Shown here one piece after another: positions 1,701 through 16,459 of a DNA stretch of 16,786 bases. How positions within the stretch are numbered: the first letter of the stretch is position 1; each line of letters starts with the position of its first letter. The stretch comes from Lentisphaeria bacterium (GTDB lineage Bacteria; Verrucomicrobiota; Lentisphaeria; Oligosphaerales; PUNB01), in contig SLNM01000151.1 in NCBI GenBank assembly GCA_007133055.1, forward strand, positions 1 to 16,786. Direction: 5' to 3'. The notes under the pieces are model-generated. The model did no database searches. It saw only the letters and a list, made by a program, of their open reading frames with translations, and had not been told where the DNA came from. The position numbers and the translations under genes were made by a program.

Positions 1701-2895
1701 AACAATAGACCTGCAACGACAGTTTGTCCTGCCCACCTATTCGCCGGAGCTGGTTCTAGCCCGCGGCGCCATGTCCCGGGTATGGGACCAGACAGGACGG
1801 GAGTATTTGGACTTCACCAGCGGCATCAGCGTTTGCAACCTCGGCCATTGCCACCCTCGCGTAACCGAGGCGATTCAGCGCCAGGCCGCCACTTTGGTAC
1901 ATGTTTCCAACCTGTTCTACAACCAGCTCCAGCCACGGCTGGCCCGGGTCGTCTCCCAACTTGCCTTCGGAGGAAGAGTTTTCTTCTGCAACAGCGGCGC
2001 CGAGGCGAACGAGGGGATCATCAAATTTGCCCGCCGCTGGGGCGGCGGCTCGGGAAGGTGCCGCATTGTATGCATGGAGAATTCCTTCCATGGCCGTACA
2101 CTGGCCACTTTGGCGGCGACCGGCCGAGCCAAGTACAGAATGGGATTTCAACCGGACACTCCGGGATTCGTGCATGTTCCCTTCAATTCGATCAAGGCGG
2201 CCGAGCAGGCGCTCGACTCGTCAACCGCGGCGGTGCTGGTGGAACCGATACTGGGGGAGGGCGGGGTGATCCCGGCCAATGTCGAATATCTGCGGCAACT
2301 GCGCCGCCTCTGCGATGATCGCGGAATCCTGCTGCTCTTCGATGAAGTTCAGTGCGGCATGGGCAGGAGCGGTGAGATGTTCGCCTTTCAGCATTATGGT
2401 GTCGAGCCCGACGGCATGACTCTGGCCAAGGCTTTGGGCAACGGCTTTCCGATCGGCGCCTTTGTCGTACGAGAACAGTGGGCCGATATTTTCGAACCCG
2501 GAACGCACGCCTCCACTTTCGGCGGCAATCCGCTGGCCTGCGCCGCCGGCCTGGCGGTCTTCGAGACTTTCGAGCAGGACAATGTGCTCGATCATGCCCG
2601 CCGAATGTCGGGGCTGCTGCGTGCCGGACTCGATGAACTGGGGCGAAGGCATACTCTAATAGAAGAGGTTCGCGGGGTCGGCATGATGCTCGGCATTGAC
2701 TTGCGAACCCCGGTCAAGCCCGTGCTGCAAGGGGCGGCAAAGGCGGGGCTTTTGATCCTGTCTGCCGGAGAGAACACCCTGCGGCTGCTGCCGCCACTTA
2801 CGGTCGGCGAAACCGAGGTTGACGATGCCTTGTCCATCCTGGACCAGGTCTTGTCAGCGGCGGGAGCGCAAACGAATGGAGACGGGCAATCCTGA
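1684..2895 (+). CDS. argD: Acetylornithine/ornithine-type class III aminotransferase
   Basis: A 403-residue PLP-dependent class III aminotransferase, most like ArgD, which converts N-acetylglutamate semialdehyde and glutamate to N-acetylornithine and 2-oxoglutarate in arginine synthesis (and succinyl-diaminopimelate in lysine synthesis). Family motifs are all present: NSGAEANE at about 103-110, SFHGRT at 134-139, DEVQCGMGRSG at 220-230, the PLP lysine K249 in TLAKALGNG, and STFGGNPLACAA near 278-289. The length matches ArgD (about 390-410). GGGAG at 1670-1674 precedes the ATG at 1684. Its 5' end overlaps the upstream TIM-barrel gene by 17 nt and its 3' end overlaps the convergent der by 42 nt. 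No other arg genes are nearby, so a related specificity (ornithine or succinylornithine) cannot be excluded. Confidence 0.9.
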   Translation: MTTLSETIDLQRQFVLPTYSPELVLARGAMSRVWDQTGREYLDFTSGISVCNLGHCHPRVTEAIQRQAATLVHVSNLFYNQLQPRLARVVSQLAFGGRVFFCNSGAEANEGIIKFARRWGGGSGRCRIVCMENSFHGRTLATLAATGRAKYRMGFQPDTPGFVHVPFNSIKAAEQALDSSTAAVLVEPILGEGGVIPANVEYLRQLRRLCDDRGILLLFDEVQCGMGRSGEMFAFQHYGVEPDGMTLAKALGNGFPIGAFVVREQWADIFEPGTHASTFGGNPLACAAGLAVFETFEQDNVLDHARRMSGLLRAGLDELGRRHTLIEEVRGVGMMLGIDLRTPVKPVLQGAAKAGLLILSAGENTLRLLPPLTVGETEVDDALSILDQVLSAAGAQTNGDGQS

Positions 2896-4206
2896 CTTCG
2901 GGAAGAAGGCTGACTGCAACTGGTTTTTCAGGTATTGCCGATAGTTTTCACGGGCCAGCCTGCCATCGTTGACGAACAGAAGAAACTGCGGCGGCGGATT
3001 GCCGACCATGGTGCCGTAGAAGAACTTCAGGCGCCCCCTTTTCTCGGCCGGCGGCGGTGTCCGCGCAAAAACGTCATGAACAAACTGATTGACCATGGCG
3101 GTGGGGATTTTCAGGCTGGCTCGCTCGCGCAGTTCGAAGAGCGCTTCGAGCAGGCTCTGCAGATTGTAGCCGCTGACTGCGCAGACTCCGATGATCGGGG
3201 CGTATTGCATGAATGGCAGGGACTGTTCCAGACGGCGGCGCATCTCACGCATCTTGACATGCCGCCCGGCCAAATCCCATTTGTTGGCAACAATAATGCA
3301 TGGCTTATTCTCACTTTCGATCAAGCGCGCGATGCGCCGATCCTGAGCCGAGTTCGTGTCCCCGGCATCGACCACAAAAACCACTGCCTGGCTGCGCTTG
3401 ATGGCGTTTTCCGCACGCATGACGCTGAACAGCTCGACCGCACTGTCGACCCGGCGTTTCCGGCGCAGCCCGGCGGTGTCGATCAGGGTGAACAGGGCTC
3501 GTTCCTGGTCATTTTGCACGGTGATCGGGATATCAACGGCATCGCGGGTGGTGCCGGCGATGTCGCTGACCATCACTCTCGGTTCACCAAGCAGAGCATT
3601 GACCAGGGAGGACTTGCCGACATTGGGGCGGCCGACGACCGCCAGTTGCAGGCCCGGCTTTTCGATTTCCGAGGGAGCTGAGAGCGGCAGCCGAGCCGCC
3701 AGCTCCGCCACCAATGTTTGAAGATTGCGGCCATGACTGCACGAAATCGGAACCACCGGCTGCCAGTCCAGTGCGGCGAACTCGTTGGCTGCGGCTTCCG
3801 CCTGCTGCGCATTGTCGGCTTTGTTGACGGCAACGATAACTTGGGAGGCGCCGCCACGACGCAGCAGCCGGGCAAATTCCCGGTCCAGGGCAGTAATCCC
3901 ATCCCGGCTGTCCACCACCCAAATCAGGCAGTCGGCCTCTCGGATCGTCTCTTCAACCTGATCACGGATCAGACGGTCAAATGCCGACACCCTGCCGTCG
4001 TCGGCGAAAACACCCAGCCCGCCAGTGTCGGTCAGGAGACATTGCCGCCCGGCCAAATGCACCGGGCTGACCACACGATCCCTGGTCACCCCGCTCTCCC
4101 GGTGGACAATGGAGACACGGCGGCCAGCCAGTCGATTGAACAAAGAGGACTTGCCGACATTGGGGCGGCCGACAATGGCCACTACAGGCAGGTTTTGATT
4201 GGTCAT
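2854..4206 (-). CDS. der: Ribosome biogenesis GTPase Der (EngA)
   Basis: A 450-residue protein with two tandem TrmE-Era-EngA-like GTPase domains and a C-terminal KH-like domain, the unique architecture of Der, which is needed for 50S subunit assembly. Domain 1 has GRPNVGKS (13-20), DTGG (60-63) and NKAD (128-131). Domain 2 has GRPNVGKS (192-199), DTAG (243-246) and NKWD (308-311). The KH-like part runs from about residue 350 to the basic tail (RLRSRR). Bacterial Der is usually 435-490 residues. The ATG at 4206 is chosen because the first P-loop then sits at the expected position and GGA lies about 8 nt upstream. The last 42 nt overlap the end of argD on the opposite strand. A 224-nt gap separates it from the PAS gene upstream, so it may have its own promoter. 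Confidence 0.97.
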   Translation of the reverse strand: MTNQNLPVVAIVGRPNVGKSSLFNRLAGRRVSIVHRESGVTRDRVVSPVHLAGRQCLLTDTGGLGVFADDGRVSAFDRLIRDQVEETIREADCLIWVVDSRDGITALDREFARLLRRGGASQVIVAVNKADNAQQAEAAANEFAALDWQPVVPISCSHGRNLQTLVAELAARLPLSAPSEIEKPGLQLAVVGRPNVGKSSLVNALLGEPRVMVSDIAGTTRDAVDIPITVQNDQERALFTLIDTAGLRRKRRVDSAVELFSVMRAENAIKRSQAVVFVVDAGDTNSAQDRRIARLIESENKPCIIVANKWDLAGRHVKMREMRRRLEQSLPFMQYAPIIGVCAVSGYNLQSLLEALFELRERASLKIPTAMVNQFVHDVFARTPPPAEKRGRLKFFYGTMVGNPPPQFLLFVNDGRLARENYRQYLKNQLQSAFFPKSGLPVSIRLRSRR

Positions 4207-4430
4207 TGGAGATTCCGTGTTGGAAGTAAAAGACAGCTTAGAAACCTGATTTTTGACCGAAATCGGGGTTTTAAGAGGTCAGGCGCGACCCGTCGCACAC
4301 GCCTGCGGTGCCGCCCTCCCCCTTGAGCTATCGCCGCCGAGAAGTCGCTAAAGTGGCTATTTTGGCCGAAAAACCCGCCTCCGAGTTTGGCAGCCGGCGC
4401 GAATCTTTTCCTATCGCTGACTGATGCTGC

Positions 4431-5582
4431 TCAGCAAGGCTCCAGGCAAATCAATATGGCGGTGCCGTTGTTTTCTCCGCTGTTGGAAATAATCATGTGC
4501 GCCTGACGAAAAACCCCGTTGATCTCGACCGTTTCCTTCTCCTGCCCGGAGTGAATGAAGCGGGCCAGGCCACTGTCCGGTTCCGCTGCATTGATTGATC
4601 CCAGCAGCTCGCGGGCCGAGCGATTCATACTTAAAACCCGCAACTGCCGATCAACCACCAAGGCGGCCAGAGCACGTTGTTCAAGCTCCTGCATGACCAG
4701 GTCCTTGATATTTTCCAAACGACGGATTCGAATTTCCGCCTCACGGTGGAGTTCTTCCAGCTTATTGTCCAGTTGAACCTCAAACTGATGGCTCAGTCGG
4801 GCCGCCGCCTCGTGCTTGCTGGCTTTGCCCTTGTCGTAATCCTCAATCACCTCCTGGCAAAGCATCCTTATTTGCAGAATGCTGGCATGGTCAACACTTT
4901 TCAAATCGGGCGGGAGGCGGAAGGTGTGATCGGGTGCGAGACTCACCGGAGGTTCCGGGGGTGGCTCCTCAAAATCACCCAGGTCCAGTTCAAAAACTCG
5001 TTGTCCCGAAGTTGGCGGCGGTTTAGCCGCGGCAGGCTCCGGCTCGACGGAGGATGCTTCCGGCCCGGCTGCCGCCTTGCGACTAGGCGCAGCGGAGTCA
5101 GCTTTCATGGCAGTGCCCGGCCCGTAGGTTGTTTTAGCCTTGACTTCACGAATGTGCGGAAGATTGCGCTCCTGCAGCAGAGCCTGCAACGGTCTTCCGT
5201 TCTTTCCCGCAAGATTGACAACAATGTCGACAAAACAGGTCAGCTCATCGCCCGTAATTCCACGATGCCAGGAAAGCCCCGCGACCCCCTTGGACAGCAA
5301 CATGGCGGCCAGCTTTCTGAACATCGGACTGGCAGGTTCGAGCGCAACGCCGCGATAGAAGATTTGGTTGTCTTTGAAAGTCAGGGTTAACTTGCCGTTG
5401 CAAGCGTTAATCGCCTGCTCGAAATCAAATGTGCGGTCAGCCACCGCCCGCTTGAAAACCGGGTGCCGGTGGTGATATACAACGGCAATATTAACCAGCA
5501 CGGCCAGGCTGCGGACCATTTCGTCAACCAAGGCTATGGTATCATTCGGCTGGGATTGTGGTTGGTTGCTCATAATTATCAA
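4431..5582 (-). CDS. PAS-domain protein with an N-terminal HD/HEAT-associated-type domain
   Basis: A 383-residue soluble signalling protein of unknown target. The N-terminal about 150 residues (HHRHPVFKRAV, LTLTFKDNQIFYRGVAL, KGVAGLSWHRGIT) look like the globular domain often found before HD-GYP or HEAT modules. A low-complexity Ala/Pro/Glu linker follows (about 165-225), then a charged, probably coiled-coil helix (about 255-305). A C-terminal PAS-like domain starts at RALAALVVDRQLRVLSMN. No kinase, GGDEF, EAL or HD output domain is present, so it probably works through partners. TTG at 5582 lies 10 nt after AGGA and 3 nt after the stop of the PilZ gene; ATG at 5573 is the alternative start. 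The spacing indicates an operon with the PilZ gene. The domain calls are from pattern recognition only. Confidence 0.75.
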   Translation of the reverse strand: MIIMSNQPQSQPNDTIALVDEMVRSLAVLVNIAVVYHHRHPVFKRAVADRTFDFEQAINACNGKLTLTFKDNQIFYRGVALEPASPMFRKLAAMLLSKGVAGLSWHRGITGDELTCFVDIVVNLAGKNGRPLQALLQERNLPHIREVKAKTTYGPGTAMKADSAAPSRKAAAGPEASSVEPEPAAAKPPPTSGQRVFELDLGDFEEPPPEPPVSLAPDHTFRLPPDLKSVDHASILQIRMLCQEVIEDYDKGKASKHEAAARLSHQFEVQLDNKLEELHREAEIRIRRLENIKDLVMQELEQRALAALVVDRQLRVLSMNRSARELLGSINAAEPDSGLARFIHSGQEKETVEINGVFRQAHMIISNSGENNGTAILICLEPC

Positions 5583-8278: not shown

Positions 8279-9283
8279 ATGGACATGGAATATCGTAATT
8301 TAGGCAGAACCGGAGTCAAGGTCAGCCCTCTGTGCCTGGGCTGCATGATGTTCGGCAACCGAACCGGGCCGGAGGATTCGTATGCGATCATCGACCGCGC
8401 CTTGGAGGCTGGCATAAACTTTCTCGACACCGCCAATGTCTACAGTCGCGGCGAAAGCGAGAAAACCACAGGCGAAGCACTGAAACGCAATGGACAGCGT
8501 GACAAAGTTATCCTGGCCACCAAAGTTCACGGCAGCATGGGCGAAGGTCCTAACGACCGGGGCAACAGCCGCCGCCATATTATCGAACAATGCGAGGCCA
8601 GCCTGCGCCGATTGCAGACCGACTGGATCGACCTCTATCAAATCCATCGACCGCAGTCGGACATCCCAATCGACGAAACACTGCGTGCACTCGACGACCT
8701 GGTCCGCGCCGGCAAGGTTCGGTACCTTGGCACCAGCACCTTTGCCGCCTGGCAATGTGTTGAATCACTGTGGGCCAGCCAGCGGTTCAACCTTAACCGG
8801 TTCGTCTGCGAGCAGCCACCCTACAACCTACTGGACCGACGCATCGAACGGGAGCTGCTGCCGATGGCCAGAACCTACGGCTACGGGATTATTCCCTGGA
8901 GCCCTCTGGCCGGCGGGCTGCTGACCGGCAAGTACAAACGAAACGAAGATGCACCGGAAAACAGTCGCTTCAGCCGACGCCAGGACAGCCCTCGTGTGAC
9001 ACCGGCCATGTTCGACGGGGTGGAGGGCTTGCAGCCCCTGGCCGACGACAAGAGCTGCACCATGGCTCAACTGGCTCTGGCCTGGTGCCTCCGGCAACCG
9101 GGGGTAACCGCGCCGATCATCGGCCCGCGCACGATGTCGCAGCTCGAGGACAACCTGGGGGCGCTGCAAGTAACGGTGAACGACCAGGACTGTGAAACAA
9201 TCGACCGGCTCAATGGCCCGGGCCAGGCGGCTTCGCCTTTCTATCAGGCCGATTTCGGACCGCATCAGTTCCCGGTGGAATAG
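8279..9283 (+). CDS. Aldo/keto reductase
   Basis: A 334-residue NADPH-dependent oxidoreductase of the aldo/keto reductase superfamily with a TIM-barrel fold. It falls in the bacterial group related to YghZ, Gpr and the potassium-channel beta subunit. The catalytic tetrad is visible: D50 and Y55 in [12 protein letters not shown]82 in ATKVHG and H123 in LYQIHRP. Cofactor-binding segments near the C-terminus ([16 protein letters not shown] and PIIGPRT) are also typical. The start at 8279 has a strong AAAGGAG at 8266-8272. It lies 17 nt after the flavoprotein gene, so they are probably cotranscribed as a carbonyl-reduction or stress-response unit. The substrate cannot be told from sequence. Its stop is 16 nt before the polX remnant. 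Confidence 0.94.
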
Positions 9284-9299
9284 ATATTACTGGCAGACC

Positions 9300-9878
9300 A
9301 TGGAGAATCCCGGCATCGCCAAAATTTTCGAGGAGATCGCCGATCTCCTTGAGCTGCGCGAGGGAAACCCCTTCCGCGTACGCTCCTATCGCAATGCCGG
9401 GAGAAACTGTCTGTTCGGCTGGCCGACGGTTTGCAGGTCGACTTTCGATAATTCAATGAATCATCGTTCGGCGCCGCTTTGCTCTACTTTACCGGCAGCA
9501 AGCCGCACAACATCAAATTGCGCAAGATTGCCAATGAGCACGGCTGGAAGCTCAACGAATACGGTTTGTTCGAGGGCGAGAGCAGGCTGGCGGGGCAAAC
9601 CGAGGAGGAAATCTACGGGAAACTGTCGCTTGCCTGGATTCCGCCCGAGCTGCGCGAAGACACTGGCGAACTGACGGCGGCGGGCCAAAATCAGTTGCCG
9701 AACCTGCTGCAGGCAGACGATCTGCGCGGCGACCTGCACTGCCACACCACGGCCACTGACGGCCAGAACACAATCGGTGAAATGGCCGAGGCCGCCAGCA
9801 TTCACTATAACTTCAATCTCTCCACCTCAGCCATGACCGACCGAATGCGCCGTTGGCGCGGGGGGCTGCAAATGGAAC
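9300..9878 (+). pseudogene. polX: Broken DNA polymerase X / PHP exonuclease gene
   Basis: A decayed copy of bacterial PolX (about 570 residues when intact), a repair polymerase with N-terminal HhH/Pol-beta domains and a C-terminal PHP nuclease. From the ATG at 9300 the true N-terminus is seen ([19 protein letters not shown], then [12 protein letters not shown], about 36 residues). Sequence then jumps to the end of the polymerase core in another frame: [10 protein letters not shown] from 9419, an in-frame TAA at 9449-9451, then [27 protein letters not shown] and [13 protein letters not shown]. The PHP start [14 protein letters not shown] follows (about 9725-9766), and similarity fades at GLQMER near 9877. 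About 180 residues with the polymerase active site and most of the PHP domain are missing. The remnant ends exactly where a REP-like repeat begins at 9879. It cannot encode a working enzyme. Confidence 0.9.
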
Positions 9879-9933
9879 GCCCTGGAGCCGTCCGGCCTCG
9901 GACGGTATTAACGGCGGAGACCCGCCGTCTCCA
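9879..9933. repeat. REP-like double-hairpin repeat, copy 1
   Basis: Two adjacent 7-bp stems with 4-nt loops: CCGTCCG (9888-9894) with CGGACGG (9899-9905), and ACGGCGG (9911-9917) with CCGCCGT (9922-9928). The 55-nt unit recurs inverted at 16628-16682 with only two mismatches, and its distal half recurs at 16591-16616. This behaves like an intergenic palindromic repeat family of the genome. Confidence 0.85.
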
Positions 9934-10246
9934 AAAGCGACGATTGTGGCGGACGATTCTTGTGTGTGATCGTAAATTCGCAGTCGTCAGCCGCTTCTGT
10001 CTTTTTCTTATGAAGACGGCCTGGCAAGAGCGACCAAGGGTGGCGACGAAGTATGCAAATGTCCGACGCGCTGGCCTGGTGAAATAATGGGGCTATATTA
10101 TGCACAGCGGCCAATGACAATGGCCAGAGTGCATTCATTCTCGGCCAGGAGCTTCTCCGTCTCGGGCGGGATTGCCAGGCGGCGCTTTAGTAGAGTCTAT
10201 GTTTTTCTGATACGGAAATCAAATAAGGCAGTACAAGGTGCAAACA
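9934..10246. other. Gene-free stretch between the polX remnant and the BamD-LptE gene
   Basis: About 310 nt with no supportable gene. The open frames here (for example 10087-10281 on the plus strand and 9908-10138 on the minus strand) are short, lack domains and look random. A small stem GGCCA/TGGCC lies at 10109-10125. The part just after the repeat (GACGATTGTGGCGGACGATTC, 9938-9958) may belong to the repeat unit. AAGGTG at 10235-10240 is the ribosome-binding site of the next gene. The promoter was not identified. Confidence 0.4.
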
Positions 10247-11830
10247 ATGAAAAACACAATTCTCCCTGTGTCTCGGTTTAAATGGGCGAGTGCTATTTGT
10301 GTGTTGGTATTCCTGGCTGTCTGGCGACCATCTCACCTGCTTGCCGAAGAGGTGGTCGGCCCGGTGGTCGGCAACGACCCGGGCTGGCGAGTGGAGACGG
10401 GCTTGCTGCGTCGACAGGAAGTGGACTTGCAGGAGCGGGTCAACCAGCAAGTTGCCAGGGGGCAGTTCGCGGCGGCGGCTCGAACCTACGGGCGAATGGC
10501 CAATCTGGCCACTCGCCGGGTCAATGCCGCCTGGGCCACCATGCATAAGGGCGAGGCGCAGATCGCCGCCGGTCGCCTGTGGCAGGCGGCCGGGAGCTAT
10601 AAGTCAGCGATCCAACGGTGGCCCGGAGAAATCAATTTTCGCCAGGCAATCAATCGACTGCGGGAAATAGCCGAGGCTCTGGCCACTCAGCCCAGCTCGA
10701 TCCTGGGGGTGATCCCAGTATCGAGAACAGATCAGGCCATCGAGCTGTACAAGTTCATCGTCGAACATGCCCCCTCCGGACCGAACGCCGCCGCGGACGC
10801 CATGCGGCTGGCCGAGCTCCAGCTTCAGGAGCGTCAGACCGAGGCGGCAATGGCCTCGTTTAAACAGGTCTACGAACGTCATCCCCGGTCTGACGAAGCG
10901 CCGCGGGCCGCCATAAAGTATATTGACCTGCTGCTTGAGCGAGCCAGGCGCGCCCATGGGCATCCGCAAATGCTGGCGGAGGCGCGCGAGGAGGCACGCG
11001 GCTTCCTGCGTCGTCACCCGCGCCACGAGCTGGCCGGGGAAGCTGAAAATATGCTTCGGGAAAGCGAGGAGCTACTGGCCGCCTACTACCTGGAGCTGGC
11101 CGCCTTCCATATGCATCCGGTCCGCTCCCAGGTCGACTCCGCCAGGCGATACCTGAACATAGTGATCGAACGCTTCGGGAACACTGCGGCGGCGCCGAAG
11201 GCGAATGAGATGTTGCGGCAGCTCGACAATCCAGCCGGCAATTCGCCGTCCGCTGGCAATTCCGGATCAAATTCTCCGGCGGGCAACTCGGCAGCGTCCG
11301 AAGACTTCACATATACGGAGGAGGACATACAGGCCATGGAGATCATCCCCGTGCGGCTTAGGCCCCTGAGCGCGGCGCCGCTGCCCGCTTTTTCCAGCCT
11401 GGCAGTGGTGTCCGTGCGCAATCACTCCATGGAACCAGAACTGGGAACGGTTTTTCAGCGGCAACTGCACGAAGAAATTATGCGCGAGGAAACTGTCGCA
11501 CTGCAAAGTGCGGACAATGCCGATTTATGGTTGGAAGTGCGAATCCACAGCCTCGATTACCGGGCCAGTGCGTCGGCCAGAATTCGCCGGGAACAAGACC
11601 TGCCAGACTCTTTGAGCACTCATTCCACCACTATTTACACAGCCTCCCTGAATCTGGACTATCAGGTGCTAACTCCGAACCGGGAAGTGTTAATTGAATG
11701 GCAGTCGGTTGGTGGCGAGGCTGATTTTCCGGCCATGCCTGACATGGCCATGTCCAGGGAAACGGCGATTCGCCAGTCAGCCAGCGATGCGGCCAGGAAG
11801 CTGATGCACAGCATCGTAGATTCCTGGTAG
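10247..11830 (+). CDS. Predicted BamD-LptE fusion, periplasmic outer-membrane assembly protein
   Basis: A 527-residue exported protein with two parts. Residues 1-34 form a signal peptide (basic RFK, hydrophobic core ASAICVLVFLAVW, likely cut near HLLA-EE). There is no lipobox cysteine, unlike normal BamD and LptE, which are lipoproteins. Residues 60-328 are TPR-like; the stretch with LLAAYYLELAAFH and ARRYLNIVIERFGNTAAAPKANEML matches the BamD pattern (KxxxAxxYLxxxxY...AxxRxxxVxxxYP...A). A linker of AGNS-type repeats covers about 329-351. Residues about 365-527 match LptE: FSSLAVVSVRNHSMEPELGTVF, a QLHEEIMRE helix, NADLWLEVRI, LNLDYQVL, VLIEWQSVGGEADFPA and a final helix SRETAIRQSASDAARKL. 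ATG 10247 is chosen over the in-frame GTG 10238 because AAGGTG lies 6 nt upstream. ispF follows after about 50 nt. The domain calls come from recognition, not from searches. Confidence 0.75.
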   Translation: MKNTILPVSRFKWASAICVLVFLAVWRPSHLLAEEVVGPVVGNDPGWRVETGLLRRQEVDLQERVNQQVARGQFAAAARTYGRMANLATRRVNAAWATMHKGEAQIAAGRLWQAAGSYKSAIQRWPGEINFRQAINRLREIAEALATQPSSILGVIPVSRTDQAIELYKFIVEHAPSGPNAAADAMRLAELQLQERQTEAAMASFKQVYERHPRSDEAPRAAIKYIDLLLERARRAHGHPQMLAEAREEARGFLRRHPRHELAGEAENMLRESEELLAAYYLELAAFHMHPVRSQVDSARRYLNIVIERFGNTAAAPKANEMLRQLDNPAGNSPSAGNSGSNSPAGNSAASEDFTYTEEDIQAMEIIPVRLRPLSAAPLPAFSSLAVVSVRNHSMEPELGTVFQRQLHEEIMREETVALQSADNADLWLEVRIHSLDYRASASARIRREQDLPDSLSTHSTTIYTASLNLDYQVLTPNREVLIEWQSVGGEADFPAMPDMAMSRETAIRQSASDAARKLMHSIVDSW

Positions 11831-11883: not shown

Positions 11884-12399
11884 ATGTCGATATCAGCCTT
11901 CAGAATCGGCCACGGCTTCGATGTTCATCCGTTGGTTGCGGGGCGCAGGCTGGTGCTTGGCGGCGTGGTTGTTCCGCATGACAAAGGGCTGGCGGGACAC
12001 TCCGACGCCGATGTCCTCCTGCACGCGGTGGCGGACGCTTTCCTGGGTGCGGTGGCGGGCGGCGATATCGGCCAATGGTTCCCGGACAGCCAGGAGCAAT
12101 ACCGGGATGCCGACAGCCGTCAGTTACTGGAGCAGATCATTCACTCTCCCCGCCATCAAGCATGGCATCTGGTCAATCTGGACTGCACCATCATGGCCGA
12201 ACAGCCTCGCCTGGCCATCCATGTCCCGGCAATTCGCCACAGTATCGCCAGCCTTTTTGCCGCCGACCCGGAGCAAATTTCCGTCAAGGCCACCACCTGC
12301 GAGAAGCTCGGGTTTGTCGGTCGCGAGGAGGGGATAGCCGTCTCCGCCGTAGTCCTGCTGAGCAGGACTGAATATCGGGGAAATAACATTCGACAATGA
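11884..12399 (+). CDS. ispF: 2-C-methyl-D-erythritol 2,4-cyclodiphosphate synthase
   Basis: A 171-residue IspF, the MEP-pathway enzyme that cyclises CDP-methylerythritol 2-phosphate to MEcPP with release of CMP. Metal ligands D13 and H15 lie in IGHGFDVHPL and H47 in GHSDADVLLHA. The nucleotide-binding region SVKATTCEKLGFVGREEGIA near the C-terminus matches the family consensus. Intact IspF is about 157-160 residues and trimeric; this copy has a short C-terminal extension (SRTEYRGNNIRQ). ATG 11884 is preferred to the in-frame GTG at 11878, although the ribosome site is weak for both. It shows that the organism makes isoprenoids by the MEP route. No ispD is adjacent. It lies about 50 nt after the BamD-LptE gene and may share its transcript. 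Confidence 0.97.
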   Translation: MSISAFRIGHGFDVHPLVAGRRLVLGGVVVPHDKGLAGHSDADVLLHAVADAFLGAVAGGDIGQWFPDSQEQYRDADSRQLLEQIIHSPRHQAWHLVNLDCTIMAEQPRLAIHVPAIRHSIASLFAADPEQISVKATTCEKLGFVGREEGIAVSAVVLLSRTEYRGNNIRQ

Positions 12400-14020: not shown

Positions 14021-14446
14021 TCAGGCGATGTACCTGGTTGCCTTCGAGTCCGTTGCGGTTGCGGGTCCGGCGGGAGCGGGGGGCTCCAGAAATTCCCGGT
14101 GGAAATCGTATGCATCGTCAAAATCGGCCAGGACATCCTCGCGCCTGGAAGCCAGTATCCCCGCCCGAACCATGGCAAAGACAATCTCGCCAACATCCCG
14201 GGTCGAGCGCAGTCCCCAAAAATTCAGGACATCCAGGGCCAGTGGTCCGTATTCCTGCCGCGCCAACTGGCGGAACCCCTCGAGTAAGTCGGCGGCATTA
14301 AGATGCTGGTGCCGGGCTTGACCCCTGACTTCGCGGTTGGCGAAAGACAAGGAGCGCGCCACAAAGAACCATGCTTCCCGCCGATAGCGTCCGCCCTTTG
14401 CCGCCAGGGCTTCAATTCTTTTGGCCACCTCCGGATTCTGCTTCAT
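14021..14446 (-). CDS. TIGR04138 (Minf_1886) family PVC conserved protein
   Basis: A 141-residue cytoplasmic protein of unknown function. I recognise the pattern of the Planctomycetes/Verrucomicrobia conserved hypothetical family TIGR04138: an aromatic helical start (YRREAWFFVARSLSF), then HLNAADLLEGFRQLA, the core EYGPLALDVLNFWGLRSTRDVGEIVF, and ADFDDAYDFHREF. The Pro/Ala-rich tail (EPPAPAGPATAT) is variable. The start ATG at 14446 overlaps the stop of the HIT gene as TAATG and has GAGGG about 10 nt upstream. The in-frame ATG at 14455 is less likely because its Shine-Dalgarno would be too close. The HIT, TIGR04138 and ABC order is suggestive of cotranscription but gives no function. This gene is the best taxonomic clue in the window. 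Confidence 0.8.
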   Translation of the reverse strand: MKQNPEVAKRIEALAAKGGRYRREAWFFVARSLSFANREVRGQARHQHLNAADLLEGFRQLARQEYGPLALDVLNFWGLRSTRDVGEIVFAMVRAGILASRREDVLADFDDAYDFHREFLEPPAPAGPATATDSKATRYIA

Positions 14447-14886
14447 TATTCCCATTCCCTCGAGTCTGCCAGTTTCTTTCGTACCATATTGGCGATCTGC
14501 TCCTTTTCACGGTCGTCCTCATACTGGTCATGCCGGTCGGGCAGCAGTGCGAACGGGTCGCTGTTTCTTCGGGGGATCACATGCAGATGGGCGTGCGGCA
14601 CCACCTGCCCGGCGCAGGCGCCGTTGGCCAGAAGCAAATTGAATCCGTCTCCGTCAACCGCCCGCATCAGAGCGGCGGCAATCCTGGGTGCCACTTCCAT
14701 CATGCGCCCGAGATAGTCGGCGGGTACCGTGGTCAGGCTGACATGATGCTGCCTGGGAATGATCAGAGCGTGCCCCTTGCTGACCGGCGCAATGTCAAGA
14801 AAGCAAAGCACCAAGTCGTCCTGGTAAAGATCGACGGACGGAATTTCCCGGCGAATAATCCGGCAAAAAACACAATTCTCTTCCAT
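14446..14886 (-). CDS. HIT-family nucleotide hydrolase/transferase
   Basis: A 146-residue histidine-triad protein, a superfamily that cleaves nucleoside phosphoramidates, Ap4A-type dinucleotides or adenylylated compounds. The catalytic triad HAHLHVIPR sits at about 98-106 (H98, H100, H102). The N-terminal CVFCRI (C5, C8) together with downstream His residues (H39, H47/H48) fits the zinc site of HinT-like and FHIT-like bacterial members. The block APVSKGHALIIPRQHH is also typical. The C-terminal charged extension (DRHDQYEDDREKEQI) is longer than in HinT. It is the first gene of the minus-strand operon, divergent from rpsD across a 278-nt gap. The substrate is unknown. Confidence 0.93.
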   Translation of the reverse strand: MEENCVFCRIIRREIPSVDLYQDDLVLCFLDIAPVSKGHALIIPRQHHVSLTTVPADYLGRMMEVAPRIAAALMRAVDGDGFNLLLANGACAGQVVPHAHLHVIPRRNSDPFALLPDRHDQYEDDREKEQIANMVRKKLADSREWE

Positions 14887-15985: not shown

Positions 15986-16453
15986 CTACCAGACAATGAA
16001 CTCTAAGTACTTTGCGCCCCGCCGGTAGGTGCCTTCAATGCGCCATTCGCCATCGGCATTGTCTACCACAATGTAATCTCGCCACTCGCCATTGGGATAG
16101 GTCAGCAGGTAGAGAATGCGGACATCGCGCACACGCGAGAACAAGTTTACGCCCGACCATTCACGCAGGATTTCGCGGCTTTGGAGCGCACCGCGCTCGG
16201 CGCGTGTCTGTGTATGGCCTCTAGCGAAATCCTCGCGGGAAACCTGGCGCCGGTACGCTGCCGACAGGCATTGATCGTAGGCGTCGTCAAAGCGACCCTC
16301 CGCAATCAGTCGGCAATAGGTTTCCACCACCCCCTGATCCACCTCCTCGATCGACCATTCCTCCGCGCCCCGCAAGGCGAGAAAAATCCCGCCCGCGATC
16401 AGCGCCGGGATCAGAATGAACAGAAGCCAGTTCAAGGATCGTTGCTTTAGCAT
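15986..16453 (-). CDS. Small membrane-anchored protein, possible NTF2-like fold
   Basis: A 155-residue protein of no family I can name. An N-terminal hydrophobic segment after a basic start (LKQRSLNWLLFILIPALIAGGIFLAL, about residues 2-27) is a signal anchor with no lipobox. The rest is predicted to be outside the cytoplasm: a helix with VVETYCRLIAEGRFDDAYDQCLS, then REDFARGH, followed by strands ending in WRDYIVVDNADGEWRIEG. This order (helical start with the xxxYxxLxxGxxxxAYxx pattern, then a sheet with two W-containing strands) is typical of small NTF2/SnoaL-like or DUF4864-like domains. ATG 16453 is preferred over ATG 16459 because AGGAG then has 8-nt spacing. It is flanked by repeats on its upstream side. 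Function unknown. Confidence 0.72.
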   Translation of the reverse strand: MLKQRSLNWLLFILIPALIAGGIFLALRGAEEWSIEEVDQGVVETYCRLIAEGRFDDAYDQCLSAAYRRQVSREDFARGHTQTRAERGALQSREILREWSGVNLFSRVRDVRILYLLTYPNGEWRDYIVVDNADGEWRIEGTYRRGAKYLEFIVW

Positions 16454-16459
16454 AGCCAT

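Follow-up and report, generated by a model that had tools for sequence, protein, structure and literature searches.

The stretch of DNA analysed here (the window) comprises 16,786 nucleotides of contig SLNM01000151.1, from a Lentisphaeria bacterium of the order Oligosphaerales (assembly GCA_007133055.1). On the joint evidence of sequence, profiles, a structure model and fold comparison, the gene at 10247–11830 of its forward strand (527 residues plus stop) is predicted to encode an exported protein in which a BamD-like tetratricopeptide repeat (TPR) region is joined to a complete LptE fold by a disordered linker. The overall best explanation, to which I give a probability of roughly 0.6, is a natural BamD-LptE fusion, not lipidated, that would dock on BamA and present LptE where LptD folds.

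From its N-terminus, the protein is made of a hydrophobic segment, a helical TPR region, an AGNS-rich linker and an alpha/beta domain, all encoded on the forward strand. The signal peptide region (residues 1–36, the end being approximate; 10247–10354) forms a helix at residues 8–25 in the model and, in agreement with an earlier note on this DNA, which had described a signal peptide without a lipobox in one exported protein, contains no lipobox; the outer-membrane lipoprotein anchor that characterises BamD and the lipidated N-terminal cysteine that characterises LptE are both missing. The C-terminal domain (residues 379–527; 11381–11827) had been assigned to LptE in that note, with a match to another family named as refuting, and the assignment holds: Pfam PF04390 matches residues 383–521 with 40.8 bits against a cut-off of 23 (E 4.1e-10), a class-level LptE model aligns from its position 32, and the fold comparison of this part of the predicted structure with LptE is positive. 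The domain thus has family and fold in common with LptE (RlpB) of LptDE complexes, from which it differs in having neither a signal peptide nor a lipidated cysteine of its own and in being tethered to a TPR protein.

The TPR helices (residues 61–327; 10427–11227) match TPR_6 (E 8.9e-7) and, barely above the Pfam cut-off of 25, YfiO/BamD with 25.9 bits, while the NCBIfam BamD model TIGR03302 covers residues 160–326 (E 6.6e-16) with 58.5 bits, below its cut-off of 81.4. The five-TPR BamD fold is matched by residues ~112–333 of the model, residues 115–333 aligning to residues 27–229 of E. coli BamD (YfiO), nearly the whole of that protein, so that the BamD-like character proposed in the earlier note is borne out by fold, the two profiles being divided on it. 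Compared with E. coli BamD, whose TPR fold it shares, the fused protein lacks a lipobox, carries extra helices before the aligned part and an LptE domain after it, and scores below the NCBI cut-off. Its description as a generic TPR protein is weakened by the fold comparison, although the profiles alone leave room for it. Second in the Foldseek list is an engineered BamA-BamD fusion (PDB 5efr), likewise a Bam component within a fusion, yet a laboratory construct with another partner.

Between the two domains lie the AGNS-rich linker (residues 329–351; 11231–11299), with a low predicted local distance difference test (pLDDT) score at residues 335–355, and a segment (residues 356–376; 11312–11374; pLDDT low at 365–376) that aligns with the C-terminal tail of the unfused BamD-like proteins of the order (e.g. 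KWLLPL). Pairwise identity among the fused proteins is 19–41% in the linker, as against 43–54% in the TPR part and 45–60% in LptE, the picture being one of two conserved parts joined by a loose tether.

The survey of related genomes that the earlier note had called for did yield further fusions, all in one family. A protein search returned two further fused proteins, P0002 (49% identity, 99% coverage) and P0003 (41%, 100%), and the class survey another one, L007 in genome G048, 42–43% identical; a scan of named genomes placed fusion loci in Lentisphaeria bacterium CSSed165cm_64 (SLSR01000013.1) and Lentisphaerae bacterium B1Sed10_208R1 (PUNB01000239.1), isolate labels that suggest lake sediments, presumably of soda lakes. 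Trees built from 47 rows (4 fused and 43 from loci L008–L051) place the fused sequences in a single group, supported at 100/99 in the tree of the TPR part and at 100/100 in that of LptE. The fusion is carried by all three genomes of the window's family, namely G000 (the window's own), G048 and G049, and is restricted to that family among the class and phylum loci examined. A joining of two separate genes by an assembly or frameshift error might be feared in a draft of 384 contigs in which the upstream polX gene looks broken; nevertheless, the same architecture is common to three diverged sequences from other assemblies, all four group together, and the LptE signal peptide and cysteine are absent from each, so that an artefact of this kind is ruled out for practical purposes. 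Candidates for additional fusions were rejected: for the long frames of the phylum listing (G200, G204, G216, G220, G225 and others), each domain proved to have a frame of its own, overlapping the other, and long frames in the class (such as G021, G022 and G047) turned out to be separate open reading frames (ORFs). One scan of viral contigs returned no viral relatives.

Outside this family, the two genes are neighbours. The class survey, with the alignment of fused sequences as query, covered genomes of 80% completeness or more, together with the window's own; 159 of the 164 searched matched, and loci were examined in 130 genomes (3 fused, 127 others), leaving out 29 with and 5 without a match. 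A BamD-like ORF is followed by a separate LptE ORF on the same strand in 126 of the 127 other loci, the sole locus without an adjoining LptE (L013) being one where the contig ends. Beyond the class, LptE was matched in 196 of 202 genomes; 40 loci (L170–L209), chosen for family spread and long frames, were inspected, and in 37 a BamD-like ORF stands directly upstream of LptE on the same strand, the other three (L171, L180, L199) giving no BamD-like hit. In the 123 class pairs with starts assigned, spacing, which depends on the LptE start codons chosen by the script, runs from a 26-base overlap to 487 bases apart (median, a 1-base overlap) and exceeds 50 bases in 13; no TPR start could be assigned for L031, L114 and L126. 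The genes overlap in 71 of these pairs, 38 times by exactly 4 bases, which suggests co-translation of the bamD-like and lptE genes in the class. Unusually long BamD-like proteins (566–684 residues) occur in L017, L018, L020, L036 and L040, those of L017 and L018 with C-terminal ends rich in charged residues.

General profiles recover these families unevenly. With PF04390 alone, LptE is detected in 20 of 95 class genomes and 28 of 43 class rows, and the class LptE profile reaches the sequences of solved LptE structures weakly (best 0.0022). Each of the 23 rows sampled has a match to the BamD model at E 0.001, and each also has one to the YbgF model; in the wider class, 15 of 95 genomes exceed the BamD cut-off, with mixed hits, some being the paired gene (e.g. 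G099, G097, G060, G153) and some long TPR proteins. In the verrucomicrobial relative Methylacidiphilum fumariolicum SolV, bamD and lptE are likewise paired, as an operon, although as two separate genes and with BamD called a lipoprotein (PMC10542722, available, like the other papers cited here, in part).

Lipid anchors are unequally distributed over the pair. The pattern [GASN]C, sought at residues 11–40, is present in 126 of 126 unfused LptE rows of the class and in 7 of 124 TPR partners, the counts being pattern-dependent (91/126 LptE and 8/129 TPR class rows with another pattern); outside the class, a different lipobox pattern was matched by 36 of 40 LptE rows and 6 of 37 TPR proteins. In the class, the BamD-like protein is therefore usually unlipidated, the lipoprotein of the pair being LptE. 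The earlier note had regarded the fusion as two lipoproteins deprived of their anchors, which stands for LptE and not for the BamD-like partner, mostly without a lipobox even when unfused; judging from the sequences, the only anchor lost in the fusion is that of LptE, together with its signal peptide. The fused proteins retain, by alignment, the segment corresponding to the C-terminal tail of their order relatives' BamD-like proteins, and the class LptE model aligns only from position 32–34 in G000, G048 and G049, with the join near the first LptE strand. The fusion thus appears to have arisen by the merging of two adjacent genes within one Lentisphaeria family, and a single deletion removing the bamD stop, the LptE signal peptide and the lipobox would be the simplest account.

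Separate canonical bamD and lptE genes, which would have spoken against the earlier note's proposal, did not emerge from the three fused genomes (G000, G048 and G049 being 68, 86 and 88% complete): in each, the fusion is the sole match of the class LptE model and also the best one to TIGR03302 (54.5–73.1 bits), the remaining hits, in frames of 241–1911 residues, scoring lower. As for the partners, BamA is present in all 62 class genomes searched, the window's included, where BamA is encoded on G000:C350 in frame 2615–5014 and a second BamA-like match (G000:C45:8707-10287, forward strand; a 623-residue frame) stays below the cut-off with 159 bits. LptD is found in the window's genome as an 801-residue frame (G000:C99; PF04453, 28.5 bits against a cut-off of 22.4), by a profile that detects LptD in 19 of the 62 genomes.

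It could be argued that the TPR half is a dedicated scaffold holding or escorting LptE and LptD, similar in role to BepA, which also has TPR content, rather than the BamD of the Bam machine. Its near-constant pairing with lptE, the closeness in score of a second TPR model and the general lack of a lipobox would fit. Yet the fold match extends over nearly all of E. coli BamD, nothing else in the three fused genomes scores better against the BamD model than the TPR half, the unfused relative P0004 is named 'outer membrane assembly lipoprotein YfiO' by its source, and bamA is located near the pair in two genomes: the gene order in G151 is bamA, a 106-residue ORF, bamD, lptE, and in G119 bamA lies ~3.3 kb from the pair. 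Such a scaffold is accordingly an improbable identity for this half. Within ~7 kb, locus L212 of G119 contains bamA, a TPR-like ORF, an opposite-strand ORF that I take, from a motif, to be lpxK-like, and the BamD-like gene.

The role most likely served by the fusion is the presentation of the LptE plug at the Bam machine during LptD folding. The protein would be exported unlipidated to the periplasm, where its TPR half would dock on the POTRA domains of BamA, as BamD does; with the TPR half so docked and a flexible tether of ~45 residues, the LptE half would be located where LptD folds, and the closing LptD barrel would enclose it. The tether would stand in for the lipid-directed delivery of LptE and would fix LptE and BamD at 1:1. 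In E. coli, a crosslink forms between Tyr-726 of LptD and BamD in the course of assembly, and the BAM complex is presumably where LptD encounters LptE (PMC8423444); as a substrate of the Bam machine LptD is slow, and it must fold and close around LptE (PMC6887485). BepA, periplasmic as well, helps LptD to meet LptE at the BAM complex (PMC8423444), as the fused protein would, but is a metallopeptidase, and no peptidase domain is among the Pfam matches of the fused protein. The coupling of LptD folding to its plug, as put forward in the earlier note, is plausible.

Some observations weigh against this proposal. The NCBIfam YbgF model scores closely behind the BamD model on the fused protein, unrelated TPR chains score close to BamD in the fold ranking, and, at 68–88% completeness, a missed separate bamD or lptE is not fully excluded. 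The chief objection is that, with the tether permanent, a BamD stays attached to every translocon once finished, unless the linker is cleaved or the bacteria tolerate a standing Bam-Lpt complex. The latter option, a doubtful though conceivable one, would turn the protein into a permanent coupler: each finished lipopolysaccharide translocon would keep its covalent BamD, in a standing supercomplex with unlipidated LptE, and the bamD-lptE pair found across the phylum would be a looser form of the same unit. The former would make the fusion a delivery precursor, in which both parts share a single signal peptide for export and the linker is then cleaved by a protease in the periplasm, releasing a BamD-like protein and an unlipidated LptE. 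Cleavage would dissolve the stoichiometry problem, and a linker that is disordered in the model and poorly conserved would suit it; the freed LptE, however, would have no membrane anchor, whereas every unfused LptE row of the class keeps its [GASN]C, and I regard this processing as unlikely. The presentation of LptE by a BamA-docked, intact fusion thus remains the favoured explanation.

The next gene downstream, at 11884–12399 on the forward strand, lies outside the fusion and is ispF (YgbB family; Pfam 5.4e-62). By sequence, ispF is likewise downstream in L135 and L136, and an ispF-like ORF is seen in 39 of 127 class loci as against none of the 40 outside the class. Upstream, the polX-like gene (9243–10087, forward strand) has its helix-hairpin-helix and polymerase beta thumb in different overlapping frames, the second of which stops early; this may be due to decay or to assembly error. 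Three ORFs on the reverse strand, at 4431–5579 (382 residues, adjoining a PilZ-domain gene), 14024–14455 (144 residues) and 15990–16459 (156 residues), matched nothing in Pfam at E 0.001. Promoters (2 found, 1.0 expected) and terminators (2 found, 2.2 expected) are near expectation and give nothing to build on.

No BamD-LptE fusion was found in the accessible parts of the open-access literature and, within the literature searched, the fusion itself, the pairing of the two genes across the phylum and a partner that mostly has no lipobox appear to be new. Both parts are known, and the evidence ties together two essential machines by a mechanism that is proposed only. A review, in the part available, speculates that BamA gained its lipoproteins through its work in folding LptD (PMC11784454), an idea on which the BamD-LptE locus bears. 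To sum up, the fusion and the gene order kept across the phylum point to presentation of the LptE plug by BamD, and an LptE without a lipid anchor offers a natural way to test the purpose of the anchor.
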